Assembly: GCA_007132725.1 (NCBI GenBank)
Contig: SLOD01000084.1
Coordinates: 1-52,625, forward strand
Direction of reading: 5' to 3'
DNA length: 52,625 bases
DNA from: Candidatus Sumerlaeota bacterium
GTDB taxonomy: Bacteria; UBP6; UBA1177
Numbering within the stretch: position 1 is the first letter of the stretch; each line of letters starts with the position of its first letter. This document shows, one piece after another, positions 11,756 to 29,541 of this stretch. The notes below the pieces were generated by a model that saw only the letters and a list, made by a program, of their open reading frames with translations, was not told where the DNA came from and ran no database searches. The position numbers and the translations under genes are program-made.

Positions 11756-13102
11756 ATGTATCACGACAGAGTAAACTTGACAATTTCAGCTTTAGCCTCT
11801 GCTCCGGGAAGCAGCATAGGTATTATCAGAGTTAGCGGGACCGACGCTTTTAAGATATCTACAGAAATATCCGGAAAAACTTCTTTTGAACACATGAAAG
11901 CATCTCTTGTAAAAATAAAAAATTCTCACGGAAAAATCATTGAGCAGTGTCTTTGTCTTCCTTTTTTCGGCCCCCACTCTTTTACCGGGGAAGATGTTGT
12001 AGAGTTTCACACCCACGGTGCAACAAAAAATGCAAAAGATATTCTACAGCTAATAAATGAATCCGGAGCTGTCCCGGCTTTGAAAGGAGAGTTTTCTTTC
12101 AGAGCGGTTTTAAACAACAAAATGTCTTTAAACGAAGGTCTTTCTCTTAACACCCTCATTTCAGCAGAAAACCCTTTATCTGTCGAGCTTTCAAGAAAAG
12201 TTTCTTTTGAAGACACTTTTGTTGAAGAATTACAGAATCAACTTAAAGAATGGGAACATTTCCATATTCTCTCCACAGCAGTAGTGGACTTTCCCGATCA
12301 AATGAACAGTGAAATTGATTCTGAAAAACTGAAAAACGCCGGGGAAAAACTGAAAAGTCTTCTCGTCTCTGTCGTTGAAAACAGCCAAAGCTACCAAAAG
12401 ATGCTTGACTTTACTGTGCTTATCCTTGGAAGACCAAATGTTGGAAAGTCAACTCTTTTCAACTATCTTCTAAAGAAAAACAGGGCTATAATTTCTTCTG
12501 ACGAGGGAACAACGCGGGACTATATTTCTGAAACCCTGTTTATAAAAGGGTTTCCTCTTAAACTTGTTGACTCTGCAGGAATAAGGAACAGCTGTTCAAA
12601 CATTGAGGCCGAGGGGGTAAAAAGGTCGCGGTTTTTGCTTCAAAATGCAGATCTGCTGCTTGTTGTTCTTGATTCTTCTTTGCCTCTTCAAAAAGGTGAC
12701 CATCAAATTTTAAAGGAAACTTCCGGCAAACCAAGGATCGTTTTATATAATAAAGCAGACTTGAACTTTGATGCTGAAAAACATAACAGATTGAATTTTT
12801 TGAAGATAAGTTCAAAAACCGGAGATGGCATAACATTGTTGCTTGAACAAATAGAGGCTTTTGTTTCAAACAACCTTCCTGATACCAATAGAGCTGTTTT
12901 TTTCTCTGACTGGCAGATGGCAACCGCCAACAAAATAATCGAGAACATTGATACTCTTCAAAATATTGCCGACACCGACCAAATTGAAATAACTTCCCTT
13001 GTAATTAAAAATATTTTTTCTGATGTTTCAAATCTATCGGGAAAAATTTCAACCTTCAACCTATATGATGAAATTTTCAGTTCTTTCTGTCTGGGAAAGT
13101 AA
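11756..13102 (+). CDS. mnmE: tRNA-modifying GTPase MnmE
   Basis: MnmE works with MnmG to install carboxymethylaminomethyl or aminomethyl groups on wobble U34 of tRNAs. The 448-residue protein has the tetrahydrofolate-binding N-domain (IGIIRVSG, FTGEDVVEFHTHG). The G domain carries P-loop LGRPNVGKST (about residue 224), DEGTTRDYISE, DSAGIR and YNKADL. The conserved C-terminal FCLGK corresponds to the FCIGK that holds the catalytic Cys. Length and order are normal. It follows a lipoprotein gene by 5 bases, with mnmG next downstream on the same strand, so both halves of the modification enzyme are nearly together. Confidence 0.97.
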   Translation: MYHDRVNLTISALASAPGSSIGIIRVSGTDAFKISTEISGKTSFEHMKASLVKIKNSHGKIIEQCLCLPFFGPHSFTGEDVVEFHTHGATKNAKDILQLINESGAVPALKGEFSFRAVLNNKMSLNEGLSLNTLISAENPLSVELSRKVSFEDTFVEELQNQLKEWEHFHILSTAVVDFPDQMNSEIDSEKLKNAGEKLKSLLVSVVENSQSYQKMLDFTVLILGRPNVGKSTLFNYLLKKNRAIISSDEGTTRDYISETLFIKGFPLKLVDSAGIRNSCSNIEAEGVKRSRFLLQNADLLLVVLDSSLPLQKGDHQILKETSGKPRIVLYNKADLNFDAEKHNRLNFLKISSKTGDGITLLLEQIEAFVSNNLPDTNRAVFFSDWQMATANKIIENIDTLQNIADTDQIEITSLVIKNIFSDVSNLSGKISTFNLYDEIFSSFCLGK

Positions 13103-18181: not shown

Positions 18182-20144
18182 TTCTGTTTCCAAGTCTTTT
18201 GGAGCACAAAAGGTTCTTGACTCCGTTACCGGCACCATAAAAAAAGGAATAACCGCTCTGACCGGTCTGAATGGAAGTGGTAAAACAACTTTGCTTAACA
18301 TTCTTGCCGGCATAGAACAACCGGACAGCGGCACATTTGTACTTGCAAAGAACATGTCTTTGAAATACATTCCCCAAAATGCGACCTATAGCTTTAAAAG
18401 CTCTGTGATTTCAGAGGTTTCTTCTTCATCCAACCTTAAAGCAAAACGAAAAGCCCTCATAGAAAAGGAACATTCCCTGATAAAGGAACTTGAAAACAGC
18501 GATCCGGCAAAACAGGAAAATTTCTTTTTGGAACTTATGTTTGTTCAGGAAAAAATCAATAACCTTGATATTTCTATCAAAAAAACTCTTTCTCCTGAAG
18601 ATATTTTGCGAAATCTCGGTTTTTCTCCTGAATGGCTTAACATGCCTGCAAAAAATCTTTCAGGAGGATGGCAAATGAGGCTTGCTCTCGCATCTTTAAT
18701 TGCAGAAGAACCTGATATAGTTTTTTTAGATGAGCCTACAAATTTTCTTGATATTGACTGCATTTTTTTTCTTACAGACTGGCTTAAAAATTATCGTGGT
18801 GCCGGGATAGTGGTATCTCATGATAGAAGTTTCTTAAACTCTGTTTCTTCCGAGGTTTGGGAAATATTCAACGGAAAAATTACCTCATATAAAGGAAACT
18901 ATGATAACTATATTTCAGAAAGAAAAAGAAATATTGTTTTTCTTAAAAAACAAAGAAAAAAACAATTGGATGAAATTCGCAGTCTTCAAGATTTCATTGA
19001 TAAAAACCGGACAAATGCCGCAACTGCCGCCAGAGCACAATCAAGAATAAAAATACTTGAAAAAATCAAAAAAGATCTGACAGAGATACCTCCGGAAATA
19101 AATGATATGAAGATCAGGTTCCCGAATCCCGAGAAGGGGGGAGACATCGTATGTGACATCTCGGAAGTCACACACTGTTATGGCAGCACTAAACTTTTAA
19201 ACGGGCTTTCAAGAATCGTTCGGAGAAAAGAAAAAATTGCCATCGCAGGAAGAAACGGTCTGGGAAAAACCACTTTACTTGAAATTATAGCGGGAAACAT
19301 TGTTCCAGCCGAAGGTTCTGTAACAATGGGGCATAATATATCCGTTTCATATTTCAAACAGGAACAGATCAAAGATCTTCCTTTTGAAAAAACTGTTCTT
19401 GAGTACATGGAATCAATAACTCCCTACTCTCATTTCGGCTCTATAAAAACAATTCTTGGATCTTTTCTTTTTTATGAAGATTCCTGGGAGAAAAAAATCT
19501 CAATTTTAAGTGGCGGAGAAAAAATGAGACTTGCCCTTATTAACCTTATGCTTAATGCCGGAAATCTCATCTTGATGGATGAGCCCACATCTCATCTTGA
19601 TATAAACTCAAAAGAAGTCCTTATTAAAGCTCTTAATAATATTGACTCAACTCTTTTGTTTGTTTCCCATGACCGTTATTTTATTGATTCAATATCAACT
19701 TCTGTAATATATTTTTCTTCTATTCAAAAAATAGATAAATTTGATGGAACTTTAAGCGAATATATTGAGTTCCGCTCCCGTCTTGATTCCGGAGAGTTTT
19801 CAAACAGAAAAGAAAAAAACAGTCTATGTGCCGGAAGCAATAGTAAAAAAAGGTTTGTCTCAGGAGAAGATAAGAAATATATTGAAATGAAAAAAAAGAG
19901 AAATCTCATAAGTAAAATAGAGAAAAGAATAGATGAGGCAGAAAAAAAAATAATCCTGACTGAAGAAAAAAGAAATAAAATAATAGAAAAAATAAACACA
20001 TGTGATGGTAATATCACCGAGTTATCCATTAATCTTAAAAATATTGACTTTTTTCTTGAAAAACTGGTTAATGATTGGGAAAATGATGTTGATGAACTTG
20101 AACGAATTAAAGCTTTAAGCAAGCCTTTTTCGCAGGAAAAGTGA
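18168..20144 (+). CDS. ABC-F family ATPase (Uup/EttA-like, ribosome-associated)
   Basis: A 658-residue soluble protein with two ABC domains and no membrane helices, the ABC-F layout of translation factors that act at the ribosomal E site. Walker A sites are GLNGSGKTT (33-41) and GRNGLGKTT (around 362). Signatures are LSGGW near 164 and LSGGEKMRL in the second half; Walker B sites are FLDEPTNFLD and LMDEPTSHLD. A charged interdomain linker at about 240-310 is the P-site tRNA interaction motif. A long Lys/Glu coiled coil from about 560 to 650 resembles the Uup tail. Function among EttA, Uup, YheS or resistance types cannot be fixed. dnaA starts one base after its stop. Confidence 0.94.
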   Translation: MIYIDSVSKSFGAQKVLDSVTGTIKKGITALTGLNGSGKTTLLNILAGIEQPDSGTFVLAKNMSLKYIPQNATYSFKSSVISEVSSSSNLKAKRKALIEKEHSLIKELENSDPAKQENFFLELMFVQEKINNLDISIKKTLSPEDILRNLGFSPEWLNMPAKNLSGGWQMRLALASLIAEEPDIVFLDEPTNFLDIDCIFFLTDWLKNYRGAGIVVSHDRSFLNSVSSEVWEIFNGKITSYKGNYDNYISERKRNIVFLKKQRKKQLDEIRSLQDFIDKNRTNAATAARAQSRIKILEKIKKDLTEIPPEINDMKIRFPNPEKGGDIVCDISEVTHCYGSTKLLNGLSRIVRRKEKIAIAGRNGLGKTTLLEIIAGNIVPAEGSVTMGHNISVSYFKQEQIKDLPFEKTVLEYMESITPYSHFGSIKTILGSFLFYEDSWEKKISILSGGEKMRLALINLMLNAGNLILMDEPTSHLDINSKEVLIKALNNIDSTLLFVSHDRYFIDSISTSVIYFSSIQKIDKFDGTLSEYIEFRSRLDSGEFSNRKEKNSLCAGSNSKKRFVSGEDKKYIEMKKKRNLISKIEKRIDEAEKKIILTEEKRNKIIEKINTCDGNITELSINLKNIDFFLEKLVNDWENDVDELERIKALSKPFSQEK

Positions 20145-20145
20145 A

Positions 20146-21489
20146 ATGTGGAACCGGATCGTAGAAGAATTAAAAAAAACCAACAGCGAAGGAATAATAA
20201 ATGCTTTCATAAAACCGCTCTTTGTAATAAAAGAAGACCGTGAAAAAATAATTGTCGGATGCCCAAGTGAACAAATACTTCATATTCTTAAAAAACAGGG
20301 CTGGGTCAACCAGATAAAAGGCCTTGCTCCCTATCTTTTTGATGAAACGACAACTGTTGATTTTGTGATCCAGCATGTTGAACCGGAAGAAAATTTACAA
20401 CCTCCCCTCCCATTTAACGGAGATAAACATAAAAAAAGTTTAGAAGTGGAAAGCTCTAAAAATATTATTTCAAAAGAATTCACCTTTGATAATTTTGTTT
20501 CAGGACCGTCAAATCAAACTGTTTATGCTGCATCCATGGGAATAGCCCGAAATCCCGGCACTAATTACAATCCCTTTTTTATATACGGCGATTCCGGTCT
20601 GGGAAAAACCCATATTATTCAGGCAATAGCCAATCATGTCATGAAAAACAAAAATATGTCTGTCTGTTATATGACTGCTAAACAGTTAATGATGGATTAT
20701 ATATCATCTCTTTCCGATAACAGCACCGATAAATTCAGAAATGAAGTAACCGGATACGACATGCTGTTAATAGATGATATTCAGTTCCTGTCAAAAAAAG
20801 CGGCAACACAGGAAGAGTTTTTCAACATATTCGGCTCCTATCATACCAAAGGAAAACAAATAGTTCTCACATCAGACAGATACCCTTCTGAAATAAAAGA
20901 TATAGACAACAGACTTGTCAGCAGATTTATAATGGGGGTAACACTTGATATAAAACCTCCTGAGTATGAAACAAGATTGGCTATTGTAATGAAAAAAGCT
21001 GAGCTTTATAAAATGAAAATAGACGACGAAGCCGCTAAGTTTGTCGCAGTCAATTTAAAAAACAATGTAAGAGAGCTTGAAGGTGCTCTTAAAACATTAC
21101 AAATATCTTCCGAACTTATGGGTATAGAAACCATATATAAATCTTTTGCGGAAGATATCTTAAAAGACATGATAAAAAAGAAAAGCAGTATGGGTCCTGA
21201 TCAGATAATAAAAATGACATCAACTTATTTAAATGTAAAAGCAAATGAAATTGTTTCAAATAAAAGATCTAAACAGATATCTCTCTCACGACAAATAGCG
21301 ATGTATCTCATAAAAAAATATACTTCCGTTACACTGAAAAATATAGGCAACATCTTTGGAGGTAGAAATCATGCTACTGTAATATCCTCTATTTCCAAAG
21401 TTGAATTTATGATAATGAACGATGCTAACATAAAGAAAATAATTGAAAAACTGGAAAGAGAAATAGAGGAATCCATCAATGTTTTTTAA
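20146..21489 (+). CDS. dnaA: Chromosomal replication initiator DnaA
   Basis: DnaA binds DnaA boxes, melts the origin and loads the helicase. The 447-residue protein has a helical N-domain, a linker with PPLPF, and the AAA+ domain opening at FTFDNFVSGPSN. Walker A is GDSGLGKT at 148-155; LLIDDIQFL follows, then VSRF with the arginine finger. The C-terminal DnaA signature RQIAMYLIKKYTSVTLKNIG and GGRNHATVISSI give box recognition. It follows an ABC-F gene by one base with no regulatory gap of its own, so it is probably transcribed with upstream genes. Usual autoregulatory boxes ahead of dnaA are not seen; the box-like motifs lie downstream. Confidence 0.98.
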   Translation: MWNRIVEELKKTNSEGIINAFIKPLFVIKEDREKIIVGCPSEQILHILKKQGWVNQIKGLAPYLFDETTTVDFVIQHVEPEENLQPPLPFNGDKHKKSLEVESSKNIISKEFTFDNFVSGPSNQTVYAASMGIARNPGTNYNPFFIYGDSGLGKTHIIQAIANHVMKNKNMSVCYMTAKQLMMDYISSLSDNSTDKFRNEVTGYDMLLIDDIQFLSKKAATQEEFFNIFGSYHTKGKQIVLTSDRYPSEIKDIDNRLVSRFIMGVTLDIKPPEYETRLAIVMKKAELYKMKIDDEAAKFVAVNLKNNVRELEGALKTLQISSELMGIETIYKSFAEDILKDMIKKKSSMGPDQIIKMTSTYLNVKANEIVSNKRSKQISLSRQIAMYLIKKYTSVTLKNIGNIFGGRNHATVISSISKVEFMIMNDANIKKIIEKLEREIEESINVF

Positions 21490-21662
21490 CAAATGTTATA
21501 AACCGGAGTGTTGAAAAAATGTTTATTTTATATTCAACAGGTTCCATCTTCTTTTTTCAACATTCAGATAAGATAAAACTTTTATTGTTTCAGTATGTTA
21601 TTAACTTATCAACAATTTTACTTTTATTATTATTAATAACTTTTTAACTTAAGGAGAGAATA
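21490..21662 (+). other. oriC: Candidate replication origin oriC between dnaA and dnaN
   Basis: A 173-base AT-rich gap holds four 9-mers ending in TCAACA: TGTTGAAAA at 21509-21517 (TTTTCAACA on the other strand), TATTCAACA at 21531-21539, TTTTCAACA at 21554-21562 and TTATCAACA at 21606-21614. The last differs by one base from the consensus DnaA box TTATCCACA. The stretch 21615-21650, nearly all A and T, could be the unwinding element. The dnaA-dnaN setting and nearby parS support the call. The gap must also hold any dnaN promoter. AAGGAGAG at 21652-21659 is the dnaN ribosome site. Confidence 0.7.
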
Positions 21663-22805
21663 ATGATTAAATTACTGTTCAAAAGAGAAAAATTATTGAA
21701 AGCAGTTGACTACTGTATCGGTTCAATAGAGAAAAAAAATACCATGCCGATACTTAGTCATATTCTGTTCAGCTTCAAAGATGACAAATGTACCCTTATA
21801 TCAACAAATCTGGAAACAACAGTGATAGCAAATGTTGATCTTGCTGAAAAAACGGAAGAGGGTAAAATTGCAGTTCCTGCTAAATATATTCATGACATAT
21901 GTAAAGTGGGAAGAGGAGACAGTATAAACTTTAAATATGATAAATCATCTAATGTGCTTGATATAACTGCAGAAAAAACTAAATATGTTGTTCCTTGTTC
22001 TGATGCTGATGATTTTCCTTCAGTAGCTAAAATAAAAGAAAGTGATAAAAGTATAAACATTCAAAGACTTATATCATCTTTTAAAAAATTACAGTTTTCC
22101 ATGACCGAACAAAATGTTAATAAAGCTTACTCCGGTGTTTTGATCAACAAGGTTACAGAAGATGAAAAAGTTGTAATTGAAATGGTTACTACAGATATTC
22201 ATCGTATTTCTGTTGTAACTCTAAAAGATTTTAATATGGATCTTGAGGGTATTGAGAACGGTATAGTGATTCCAGGAAGAAATTTTTCTGAAATGGCTAA
22301 AATATTTGATGATTCCAAGGAAGCTAAAGTATCGTTAGAAGATGATAAGATATCTTTCAGTAACGATGAAGTTACCTTTATTTCAAGATTACTTAAAAAT
22401 GAATTTCCAAATTACAGAACAGTTATAGGAGGATATTCAACTTTAGTTTCAAAAGAGTCATCTGTCATTAATAAAAAGGAACTTATTGAAGGTGTAAGGA
22501 GGGTTATAGCTTTAAGCTCCGATGACAAGATATGGGCTACAAAATTCAGTTTTAAAAATTCTGTTTTAAGTATGACGGCAAATGCTCAGTTCGGTGGAAA
22601 TTCAAAAGATGAAATACTTGTTCAAAAGCCGTTTACAGATGACAAAGATGTTGGGATAAATGCCAGATATTTAATGGATGTATTATCTGTTCTTGATAAA
22701 AACGAAACCACAATGATAGTTGAAGAAGGATTGAAACCTTTGACTATAATTGAAGAAACAGACAATTATAATTATATTCATATGGTGATGCCATTGAGAA
22801 TCTGA
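21663..22805 (+). CDS. dnaN: DNA polymerase III beta sliding clamp DnaN
   Basis: The processivity clamp encircling DNA. The 380 residues match the family and open with the usual LLFKREKLLKAVDYC. TMPILSHILF, GRGDSINFKYD and the C-terminal NYIHMVMPLRI (the M-P-(M/L)-R-(I/L) ending) are typical of beta clamps. It lies just after the oriC candidate and 11 bases before recF, the standard dnaA-dnaN-recF order. AAGGAGAG precedes ATG 21663. Confidence 0.98.
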   Translation: MIKLLFKREKLLKAVDYCIGSIEKKNTMPILSHILFSFKDDKCTLISTNLETTVIANVDLAEKTEEGKIAVPAKYIHDICKVGRGDSINFKYDKSSNVLDITAEKTKYVVPCSDADDFPSVAKIKESDKSINIQRLISSFKKLQFSMTEQNVNKAYSGVLINKVTEDEKVVIEMVTTDIHRISVVTLKDFNMDLEGIENGIVIPGRNFSEMAKIFDDSKEAKVSLEDDKISFSNDEVTFISRLLKNEFPNYRTVIGGYSTLVSKESSVINKKELIEGVRRVIALSSDDKIWATKFSFKNSVLSMTANAQFGGNSKDEILVQKPFTDDKDVGINARYLMDVLSVLDKNETTMIVEEGLKPLTIIEETDNYNYIHMVMPLRI

Positions 22806-22816
22806 TCATTAAATGA

Positions 22817-23839
22817 ATGAAAATATTCGATATATATCTTAAAAATTTTAGAAAATTTGATAATTTTAATATTTCTTTTGATGATAAGTTTTTTATAGAG
22901 GGATTAACAGGTTCTGGAAAAACATCAATAATTGAAAGCTGTTACATATCATTAAGCGGTAAATCTTTCAGGACATCTTATTTAAAAGATGCTGTAAAAA
23001 ATGAAAATGAAAATTTTTTTATAAAGTGTACAGTAGAAGATGGAGATAAATATAAAAGAGTTTTATCTACCGGTGTTGACAGCTCAGGAAAACGCAAAAT
23101 ATTCATTGATGGAATTTTAAAAACAAGAAAAGAACTGGTTAATATTGTAACATCGGTTGTTCATACTCCGGATGATATTAATATAATTGATGGTTTTCCT
23201 TCCAAAAAGAGGGATTTTCTTGATAAAACCGCATTTATTGAAGAGAAAGGTTATTTTGATGATCTTTTAAACTACACAAGATTCATTAAACAAAAATCGG
23301 CATCATTAAAAAGATCAAACAAAAAAGCTGTAACATACCTTAATGAGGCATCTGTTCCCCTCATAGACAAAATAAGGAAAACAAGGAGTAAAATATGTGA
23401 TGAAATAAACAAAGAATTTCAGCATGTTTCTCAAAATATTTCCCCATCTCTATTTTTTGATATATCTTCTCCTGTTGATGATAAAACTGAAGAAAAATTA
23501 TATCTGAAACTTGACAAAGAATTAGAGAAGGGGCATCCTCTTTATGGACCTCATCTTGATACAGTAACTATTAAAACTCAGACTGGAGAATCAAAAAACA
23601 TGTCTATGGGAGAAAAATATTTAATATCTGTAATGCTTAAACTGTCAGAACTCTCTCTTCATTCAAAAAAAGGAGTGTATCCGTTGTTTTTTATGGATGA
23701 TGCTTTTGTATTTCTTGACCGGGAAAAAAGAAATCTTCTTTTTGATGCTGTAATGGATTTAAAAAACCAAGTTATTATGACAAGTTCTGTTGAAAGAGAC
23801 TATAAATCGGACAAACTGACCACATTTAATATTGTTTAA
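22817..23839 (+). CDS. recF: DNA replication and repair protein RecF
   Basis: RecF is an SMC-like ATPase that helps load RecA at gaps. The 340-residue protein has YLKNFRKFDN near the start, Walker A GLTGSGKTS (about 30-38), RRDFLD-like KKRDFLDKTAF, GPHLD and Walker B MDDAFVFLD. The ABC signature reads SMGEK instead of the usual SQGQ(Q/K), and the protein is 15-30 residues shorter than typical RecF. It is therefore a divergent but recognisable member. Position after dnaN supports it. gyrB, often next, is replaced by sppA. Confidence 0.92.
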   Translation: MKIFDIYLKNFRKFDNFNISFDDKFFIEGLTGSGKTSIIESCYISLSGKSFRTSYLKDAVKNENENFFIKCTVEDGDKYKRVLSTGVDSSGKRKIFIDGILKTRKELVNIVTSVVHTPDDINIIDGFPSKKRDFLDKTAFIEEKGYFDDLLNYTRFIKQKSASLKRSNKKAVTYLNEASVPLIDKIRKTRSKICDEINKEFQHVSQNISPSLFFDISSPVDDKTEEKLYLKLDKELEKGHPLYGPHLDTVTIKTQTGESKNMSMGEKYLISVMLKLSELSLHSKKGVYPLFFMDDAFVFLDREKRNLLFDAVMDLKNQVIMTSSVERDYKSDKLTTFNIV

Positions 23840-26849: not shown

Positions 26850-28066
26850 ATCCAAAAAAGTTCACAAAAAAAATGAATCTTGGAACATGGATAATTTTTG
26901 CAATGTTTGCAGGTATCGTTGCAGGAGTTTTAATGGGTCAGAGTGCGGAACTTTTCCGCCCACTTGGAGAACTTTTCATCAGGCTTATAAGAATGCTTGT
27001 GGTTCCACTGGTGGCATTTTCGATCATACTGGGAGCAAGCAGTCTCGGGGATGCCAGAAGTGCGGGAAAAGCGGGAATATTGACTTTTGTTTACTATCTG
27101 ACAACTACAGCTTTTGCTGTTGTCCTGGGACTTATTGCAGGATCTGTTTTTGAGCCCGGAAAAGGACTTGAAGTGGCTCAAATTCAAATGATGTTCAGTG
27201 ATGAATACGCTCAAAGAGGAGCAACTCCCGGTTTTTGGGACACTGTTCTTGGTTTTGTGCCTGTAAATCCTTTTGAAGCTCTGGGAGAGGGGAACATTCT
27301 GCAGGTGCTTTTCTTTTCTTTATTTTTCGGATTCGGGCTCAGCCGCATTTCTCATGAAAAAAAAGCGGCTGTTATCAGTCTGGTATCAACGGTCAACGAT
27401 GTTCTTATCTGGATGATAATGAAGGTTATGTGGACAGCTCCTATCGGAGTGTTTGCTTTAATGGCTGATGCTGTCGGGACTTTCGGTTGGGACATCCTTG
27501 CTTTGGTTTTGAAGCTGCTTCTTGTTTATGTGGCGGTTTTGTTAGCTCAGACCTTTGGAGTTTACCCATCCATGGTTAAAATATTTTCAAAAATGTCCCC
27601 CCTTCACTTTTTAAAAAAAATATCCAAAGCCCAGATAGTTGCACTTTCGACATCAAGTTCAATGGCAACCCTCCCTGTAACAATGAAAGTCTGTGAACAT
27701 GAGCTGGATGTTTCAAAAGAAACAACATCTTTTGTTCTTCCTCTTGGGGCAACTATAAATATGGATGGAAATGCAATATATTATGCTCTTGCGGCCCTGT
27801 TTTTTGCCCAGCTTTTCGGAATAGAGTTGGGCATGGCTCAATATGTTGCTATTATTCTGACAGCAACCCTTGGTTCTATCGGGCAGGCGGGAGTTCCCGG
27901 CCCGACCCTTCTTGTTGTTGCTGTGCTTTTAGCCGCCGATATTCCAATAATAGGGCTTCCCCTTCTCTTTGGTGTTGACAGGATTTTTGATATGCTTAGA
28001 ACGGCTGTTAATATAACAGGAGATGCCAGTTGTGCAGTAATTGTCAATGAAAAACTGAAAAATTAA
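26846..28066 (+). CDS. Dicarboxylate/amino acid:cation symporter (DAACS family)
   Basis: A 406-residue inner-membrane carrier of the glutamate/aspartate/C4-dicarboxylate family with about eight helices and two re-entrant loops. The serine-rich loop ALSTSSSMATLPVTM is HP1, GATINMDGNAIY is the helix-7 Na-binding motif (NMDGT in most, NMDGN here) and GSIGQAGVPGP is HP2. The helix-8 NITGDASCAVIV has the substrate-binding Asp. Exact substrate, among glutamate, aspartate, succinate or Ser/Thr, cannot be read from these alone. It is the third gene of sppA-cca-symporter, and its stop codon overlaps that of the convergent lipoprotein gene by 4 bases. Confidence 0.93.
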   Translation: MNPKKFTKKMNLGTWIIFAMFAGIVAGVLMGQSAELFRPLGELFIRLIRMLVVPLVAFSIILGASSLGDARSAGKAGILTFVYYLTTTAFAVVLGLIAGSVFEPGKGLEVAQIQMMFSDEYAQRGATPGFWDTVLGFVPVNPFEALGEGNILQVLFFSLFFGFGLSRISHEKKAAVISLVSTVNDVLIWMIMKVMWTAPIGVFALMADAVGTFGWDILALVLKLLLVYVAVLLAQTFGVYPSMVKIFSKMSPLHFLKKISKAQIVALSTSSSMATLPVTMKVCEHELDVSKETTSFVLPLGATINMDGNAIYYALAALFFAQLFGIELGMAQYVAIILTATLGSIGQAGVPGPTLLVVAVLLAADIPIIGLPLLFGVDRIFDMLRTAVNITGDASCAVIVNEKLKN

Positions 28067-29541
28067 TGTTTCTTAAATATCTGAATTCTGTTTTTTGAGC
28101 TGGCATCAACCACATAGATATAATCGTTATCAACAGCTATTCCCTTAGGGTCGAACAAATTGTAACCGCTTTCAGAAGAGAACCCGATCCCATCTTCGCC
28201 CCAGGCTGAAATAAACTCTCCGTCACTATCATAGCTCATCACCATTTTTCTGGTGTTATAGGTAACATATGAAGTGCCGTCAGAACCAATGGCAACGGCA
28301 TAGGGGTAAACTTTTTCTTCAACACAGTTGTTAACTCTGCCATAACTTCTGATATGATCCCCGCTATTGGAAAACACCTGAATCCGGCAGTTTTTTGAAT
28401 CAGCTATGTGGACATTTCCTTCACTGTCAATATCAATTCCTTTAGGGTCAATACAGCTTCCGTCACCCACTCCGTAGCCCCCTACTTTTTTAATAAGCAG
28501 TCCGCTATCCAAGTCATAAACATCAAAACAGGCATCAAAACCATTGCTGACATAAATTAGATTATCATCCCCTGAGGCCAACCCGAAAGGGGCTTGAATA
28601 AGTCTGTTATAAAAAGTTCCTCCGGATTCATATTGAAATGAAGGATATTGTGCTTTAAATGTTCCATCCAACAATATCTCAACAAGCTTCGAGTGTTTAT
28701 AGTCCCCGTCTTCTTGTTTGCCGAGATCTCCAAGCAATATTGTATCTCCTGCCACTGTTATTGAGGCAAGCTCATTTACCGGCACGCTGTAGCTGCCGTC
28801 CCTCCAATCGGAAGAGTTCCACCAGTCAAGAACAGTTCCTGTTTTATCAAGCTTTACTAAAGCATTGTTCGTGTCTATAGTTACATAGATCGCATTTTCA
28901 TATATAGTTATCCCTGAAGGGCGTCCCTGTATGTAACCACCTTCGGGCCGTCCTATTTCTTTTTCTGTAAGATCTTTTTTGAATTCGGTGCACTTGCCGA
29001 CACCGCTCCATTCACCGTTAATACAAACAAGTAGTTGACCACTATTTTCAGAACTCTCTTCCTCCCGGCATTCACCGATCTTCTCTCTTCCGTCAAGACA
29101 TCCGCAAACCCCAACATCTTTCCAATTTCCGTCTTCACATACTTTTTTCTGGTAAAGGTCATTTCCCGACTCATCTTCTCCGCAAATGAAGATCAATTCC
29201 TCCCCTTCCTGGAAAGTTTTTTCGACAAATTCTCCTCCTTCGTAAACTTCAGCAACACAATAGTCTGCAGTCCAATTATCATCATCGGGTTCAACATTTA
29301 CAATATCGTCATCATTGCTCGCTCCGTTGCCGTTGCTGTCATTGTTTTCTTTTTCATCGGGAAAAACTTCAACCGCATCGGAATCATTAACCTCTCCGTT
29401 GGCAACGGTATCTTTATCTGCGAACTCTTCTTCCAGCAATGGTTCATCTTTTATGCATCCGGAAAAAGAAAAAAACAGCAGGGCCATTAAAAATATAAAG
29501 TTTTGGGATAGCACTTGAAATCTCTGGTTTTGTCTCAACAT
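28063..29541 (-). CDS. NHL-repeat lipoprotein with acidic linker and Cys modules
   Basis: A 492-residue secreted lipoprotein. The signal peptide ends in FFSFSGC, a lipobox. The next 70 residues or so are Asp/Glu/Asn-rich. Two small Cys modules follow, including QKKVCEDGNWKDVGVC and VCINGEWSGVGKC. The C-terminal 290 residues look like a six-bladed NHL beta-propeller, with blades such as DPKGIDIDSEGNVHIADSKN and DPKGIAVDNDYIYVVDAS. NHL propellers bind protein, glycan or RNA; outside the cell a protein or glycan ligand is likelier. AGGAGG lies six bases before the start at 29541. The -10 region is TATAAG with an inverted repeat in place of a -35. Confidence 0.88.
   Translation of the reverse strand: MLRQNQRFQVLSQNFIFLMALLFFSFSGCIKDEPLLEEEFADKDTVANGEVNDSDAVEVFPDEKENNDSNGNGASNDDDIVNVEPDDDNWTADYCVAEVYEGGEFVEKTFQEGEELIFICGEDESGNDLYQKKVCEDGNWKDVGVCGCLDGREKIGECREEESSENSGQLLVCINGEWSGVGKCTEFKKDLTEKEIGRPEGGYIQGRPSGITIYENAIYVTIDTNNALVKLDKTGTVLDWWNSSDWRDGSYSVPVNELASITVAGDTILLGDLGKQEDGDYKHSKLVEILLDGTFKAQYPSFQYESGGTFYNRLIQAPFGLASGDDNLIYVSNGFDACFDVYDLDSGLLIKKVGGYGVGDGSCIDPKGIDIDSEGNVHIADSKNCRIQVFSNSGDHIRSYGRVNNCVEEKVYPYAVAIGSDGTSYVTYNTRKMVMSYDSDGEFISAWGEDGIGFSSESGYNLFDPKGIAVDNDYIYVVDASSKNRIQIFKKH

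Follow-up and report, generated by a model that had tools for sequence, protein, structure and literature searches.

Does the short gap between dnaA and dnaN in a Candidatus Sumerlaeota contig serve as the origin of replication, and what would its initiator read there? The window analysed here is one entire contig (G000:C160; 52,625 nucleotides) from a 2.43-Mb assembly in 222 contigs that is 91% complete. It carries dnaA, dnaN and a recF-like gene consecutively and in that order, all three with Pfam support (Table 1). We put the probability at about 90% that the dnaA–dnaN gap is the chromosomal oriC, with predicted DnaA sites of the form YTTTNAACA and DnaA-trios that would open an A/T stretch. 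Judged by its sequence, the gap is a regular bacterial oriC that carries a lineage-specific DnaA box, and the change in the box is the main point of interest.

Searches with DnaA recovered dnaA in 20 genomes of the order, including that of the window, and the dnaA–dnaN gap measured 162–203 bp in all 20. An origin half upstream of dnaA was rejected for lack of space, as the preceding gene ends at 20144 and dnaA begins at 20146. The genes mnmE, mnmG and rsmG, which are found together beside the origin in many bacteria, lie on the same contig at 11756–15735, 6–10 kb upstream of dnaA, and no box cluster was seen there. In two members of another family of the same phylum (f4; L028 and L030), the dnaA–dnaN gap is just 9–43 bp and no box cluster was seen around dnaA, so the origin of this sister group probably lies elsewhere than at dnaA.

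Table 1 Genes, predicted DnaA sites and trio array at the dnaA–dnaN locus, in window positions. Counts are of scored genomes, including the window.
Feature	Position	Strand	Sequence	Support or conservation
dnaA, replication initiator	20146–21489	+		Pfam Bac_DnaA and Bac_DnaA_C; relatives; solved DnaA structures
Site A, candidate	21483–21491	+	TTTTTAACA	Overlaps dnaA stop codon; same place in 17/18
dnaA–dnaN gap, proposed oriC	21490–21662			173 bp; length nearly constant across the family
Site B	21494–21502	-	TTTATAACA	ACA kept in 18/18; TTTTCAACA in most relatives
Site C, in earlier note	21509–21517	-	TTTTCAACA	ACA kept in 18/18
Site D, weak, tentative	21520–21528	-	AAATAAACA	Only near relatives and family f3, 7/18
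Site E, in earlier note	21531–21539	+	TATTCAACA	ACA kept in 15/18, letters variable
Site F, in earlier note	21554–21562	+	TTTTCAACA	ACA kept in 16/18
Site H, in earlier note	21606–21614	+	TTATCAACA	ACA kept in 17/18; adjoins trios
DnaA-trio-like array	21618–21635	+	TTACTTTTATTATTATTA	Bottom strand 3'-AAT GAA AAT AAT AAT AAT-5'; part of candidate unwinding region
dnaN, beta clamp	21663–22805	+		Three DNA_pol3_beta Pfam domains
recF-like gene	22817–23839	+		SMC_N/AAA Pfam domains and place after dnaN

An earlier note on this DNA had counted four 9-mers sharing TCAACA within 106 bases, only one of them close to the canonical TTATCCACA. Both counts are correct: the four run from 21509 to 21614, exactly 106 bases, with one on the minus strand (site C) and three on the plus strand, and the last of them, TTATCAACA, is one mismatch away from TTATCCACA. 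The number of canonical DnaA boxes within the gap is zero. Three further sites of the same kind had been overlooked (A, B and D), and the predicted DnaA sites of the region probably number seven, not four, with site A held as tentative because its positions 5–7 are the dnaA stop codon itself (21487–21489). The sites fall into oppositely oriented groups in which several neighbours lie 2 bp apart (A–B, C–D and D–E), and together they form the kind of cluster beside dnaA and dnaN that marks a bacterial oriC.

A chance gathering of short words in an AT-rich spacer is scarcely credible as an explanation. While TTTTCAACA is frequent genome-wide (318 copies, 2.3-fold the reversed control), TCAACA occurs four times in the gap, where the composition of the remaining window predicts 0.26, and of 5000 sequences simulated from a first-order Markov model of the gap, none had more than three copies. 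Nowhere else in the window do four TCAACA fall inside 120 bp, and the contigs of relatives (~1.1 Mb) contain one other such place. The idea of a chance cluster is refuted by positional conservation across the family. Relatives have ACA-ending sites at fixed distances from the end of the dnaA stop codon, namely at -7(+), 4(-), 19(-), 30(-), 41(+), 52(+), 64(+) and ~117(+), where the site at 30(-) is confined to near relatives and family f3 and the site at 52(+) is absent from the window.

Comparison of the dnaA–dnaN gaps of relatives, a check that the earlier note had suggested, showed that the sites hold their positions and stand out from the remaining gap. Based on 14 same-family relatives (leaving out the divergent G014), which are not independent of one another, the columns of sites A, B, C, E, F and H had a mean identity to the window of 79% versus 42% for other gap columns, and this difference was reached by 0 of 172 circular label shifts. 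Conservation of the four original 9-mers holds for their position and AACA end but not for their exact letters, which are changed even in the nearest genus-mate.

The nearly pure A/T stretch described after the boxes is indeed 92% A+T (21615–21650), and is better described as an array of DnaA-trios beside the last box. Directly after TTATCAACA, the top strand reads ATT TTA CTT TTA TTA TTA TTA ATA, which corresponds to bottom-strand trios of the form 3'-[G/A]A[T/A]-5'. Six consecutive [CT]T[AT] triplets on the plus strand occur only once in the window, at this array, and the trio score of the window was matched by 0.4% of shuffles (p 0.004). Across 19 genomes, which are not independent, the summed trio score was 144.5 compared to a maximum of 115 in 1000 shuffles, with the trio runs of five genomes (G004, G002, G012, G015 and G007) no better than shuffles. 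Most relatives have a box, an 11–12-bp spacer and then TTA/CTA-type trios. In genus g3, the first box usually has a second one (ATTATAACA) immediately after it, followed by a short G-containing spacer and the trios. The same orientation is found in unrelated sampled genomes with canonical boxes, for example G032, with TTTTCCACA, 12 bp and then CTACTACTACTA. According to the published rule for the basal unwinding system (BUS), a DnaA box lies no more than 16 bp from at least three NAN trios, with a spacer peak at 10–13 bp (PMC8287927). In the window, up to eight.T. triplets (top strand) follow straight after the box on the right strand, and as this rule is loose in AT-rich DNA, the p value given above comes from a stricter score. 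On this evidence, we read the A/T stretch as DnaA-trios arrayed in BUS layout.

The earlier note had also argued that placement between dnaA and dnaN fits an origin, and had named cumulative GC skew as a further check. Run on contigs, skew favors the origin, as does the positional conservation of the sites. Third-position GC skew of plus-strand genes rises from left to right across dnaA in all seven contigs (the window and six relatives), going from -0.09 to +0.04 in the window, and that of minus-strand genes rises in five of the seven. The raw cumulative minimum falls at or near dnaA in four relatives: it is at 110,298 in G007, where dnaA starts at 110,410, lies within about 2 kb of dnaA in G009 and G004, and in G021 is a flat trough that begins at dnaA (106 kb) and reaches 126 kb. 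The contigs of the window, G003 and G006 have no raw minimum at dnaA. At the level of contigs, strand composition therefore switches at the locus.

DnaA acts as a gene regulator in other bacteria, and the sites lie immediately upstream of dnaN. They could thus be DnaA-bound regulatory elements for the dnaN–recF promoter (and for dnaA), with replication beginning elsewhere. We consider this very unlikely, given that skew changes at the locus, that a trio array adjoins the last box and that the assembled genome contains no other canonical-box cluster; moreover, regulatory and origin roles are not mutually exclusive. A canonical-box origin at another place was rejected, as the assembled genome has 19 copies of TTATCCACA, none of them close together, although an origin elsewhere could have gone unseen in an assembly that is 91% complete.

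If the gap is the oriC, domain IV of DnaA would bind about seven YTTTNAACA-type sites, filling the minus-oriented group (21494, 21509 and 21520) and the plus-oriented sites (21483, 21531 and 21554), several of which have only 2 bp between them. A DnaA filament would extend from the last plus-oriented box (21606) onto the adjoining trios (21618–21635), where it would stretch one strand and open the A/T stretch next to dnaN, and the opened stretch would admit helicase loading.

The predicted box of the lineage is about YTTTNAACA, which is the E. coli consensus TTWTNCACA with a single change, C to A at position 6 (C6 and A6 hereafter). The earlier note had proposed a shifted box, N-T-N-T-CAACA; a shifted box it is, but the motif was too narrow, as position 5 is free in relatives and position 6 is nearly always A. 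Compared with canonical TTWTNCACA, the sites rarely have C at position 6 but do have A7, C8, A9 and T-rich positions 1–4 (T in the majority), where A7, C8 and A9 are to be read knowing that sites were selected by ACA at positions 7–9. Among 120 sites chosen solely by that ACA, position 6 was A in 107, C in 7, G in 5 and T in 1. Restricting to sites B, C, F and H, it was A in 64 of 69 and T in none; this tally excludes the weak sites D, E and E2 as well as site A, in which the stop codon dictates the A. Elsewhere in the contigs, the base preceding ACA is A in 38% of cases.

In a broader sample of loci, matches to TTWTN.ACA around dnaA had C 150 : A 63 at position 6 in other bacteria, A 40 : C 5 (plus 12 G) in the Sumerlaeota order and A 79 : C 1 in the phylum of G038. 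The latter (L025 and L174–L197) is a second, unrelated and A+T-rich phylum, in which boxes near dnaA are almost all TTWTNAACA and helix 5 of DnaA reads DHSSIIYAV. A at position 6 is not unique to the order: it is almost exclusive in the phylum of G038, and Mollicutes allow it.

One possible reading, somewhat short of probable, is that the initiator of the order switched its preference at position 6 from C to A, and that the same change arose separately in one or more other phyla, including that of G038; initiator and origin would then have reached a second stable specificity, which origin finders based on TTATCCACA can overlook. An 'A or C' reading by DnaA, with T excluded, would be chemically natural because each of the two bases presents an amino group to the major groove, and such a tolerance would fit these data as well as a changed preference. 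It is just as possible that A6 merely records mutation toward A+T at a base left unread by DnaA, whose specificity would be unchanged. The gap is 78% A+T, a higher A+T content goes with a larger share of A6 in other lineages, and A6 makes up nearly all boxes of the sampled phylum richest in A+T. However, a free position 6 should carry T about as often as A, as is the case in the gaps at large, which is contrary to the near absence of T at the sites. At a matched A+T content of 65–75%, counts were A 33 : C 69 in other lineages compared to A 29 : C 5 in the Sumerlaeota order, which also speaks against mutation pressure. On the other hand, the DnaA of E. coli and M. tuberculosis protects the guanine opposite C8 but leaves the one opposite C6 exposed, as expected for an unread base (PMC5043019). 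C8 is retained in the boxes of the lineage.

Both Pfam DnaA domains are intact in the DnaA of the window, and helix 5 of domain IV reads RNHATVISSI versus RDHTTVLHAC in E. coli. The base-contacting positions of E. coli DnaA are 399, 423, 432–435 and 438–439 (PMC5043019), at which the window has R, K, R-N-H-A and I-S, respectively. Asn replaces the near-invariant Asp433 of the DH dyad (GGRNHATV; window 21363–21380, L004, L005, L006 and L009) in the genus of the window, in g2, in g4 and in G021, with AACA-type boxes kept. As a cause of A6 it was rejected, because most of genus g3 has Asp yet the same boxes. Changes at 435, 438 or 439 were not established as a cause either: A6 is somewhat more common with Ser435, Ile/Val438 and Tyr439, an association confounded by descent, and Ser, Tyr or Asn at 439 co-occur with C6 boxes elsewhere. 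From these comparisons, A6 appears to be explained by no single DnaA residue. A DnaA with HY instead of DH was found in a Clostridiales assembly (L090).

The locus resembles the B. subtilis type of BUS (PMC8287927) in its location between dnaA and dnaN, its boxes oriented toward trios, its repeated 3'-[G/A]A[T/A]-5' trios and, in most relatives, a spacer of ~10–13 bp. It differs in the letters of the box, and the window has no clear second box and a trio run that begins 3 bp after the box (12 bp if only the last part is counted). Oppositely oriented groups with several 2-bp separations are also seen in the arrays of low-affinity DnaA sites of E. coli oriC (PMC4285127, PMC6070618), whereas the proposed origin in the window is shorter (173 bp), lies between dnaA and dnaN and lacks strong TTATCCACA anchor boxes. 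Lineage-specific boxes have been described in Epsilonproteobacteria (core TTCAC; PMC5043019), cyanobacteria (TTTTCCACA; PMC4674748) and Mollicutes (TT(A/T)TC(C/A)ACA, with phytoplasma candidates TT(T/A)TCAACA; PMC3322544). These likewise involve a clade-wide shift of the 9-mer, and Mollicutes allow A6, but in the Sumerlaeota case an entire order of an uncultured lineage has A6 as its norm, with C6 exceptional.

A usable candidate oriC is now at hand for this uncultured lineage, in which the box-plus-trio layout stays while the letters of the box drift. Should A6 be a real preference, it would provide natural DnaA–box pairs with which to identify the residues of DnaA that recognize position 6, and would help to explain why origin finders that seek TTATCCACA may fail in AT-rich phyla.

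Elsewhere in the assembly, a 110-residue open frame (L002 1–330; G000:C203) has a weak second match to the DnaA-type helix-turn-helix (PF08299, 25.7 bits, below the cut-off). The window itself is mostly plus-stranded, and among its few minus-strand genes is one at 28063–29541 (-) whose product is probably secreted and has an NHL repeat and a linker rich in Asp/Asn.
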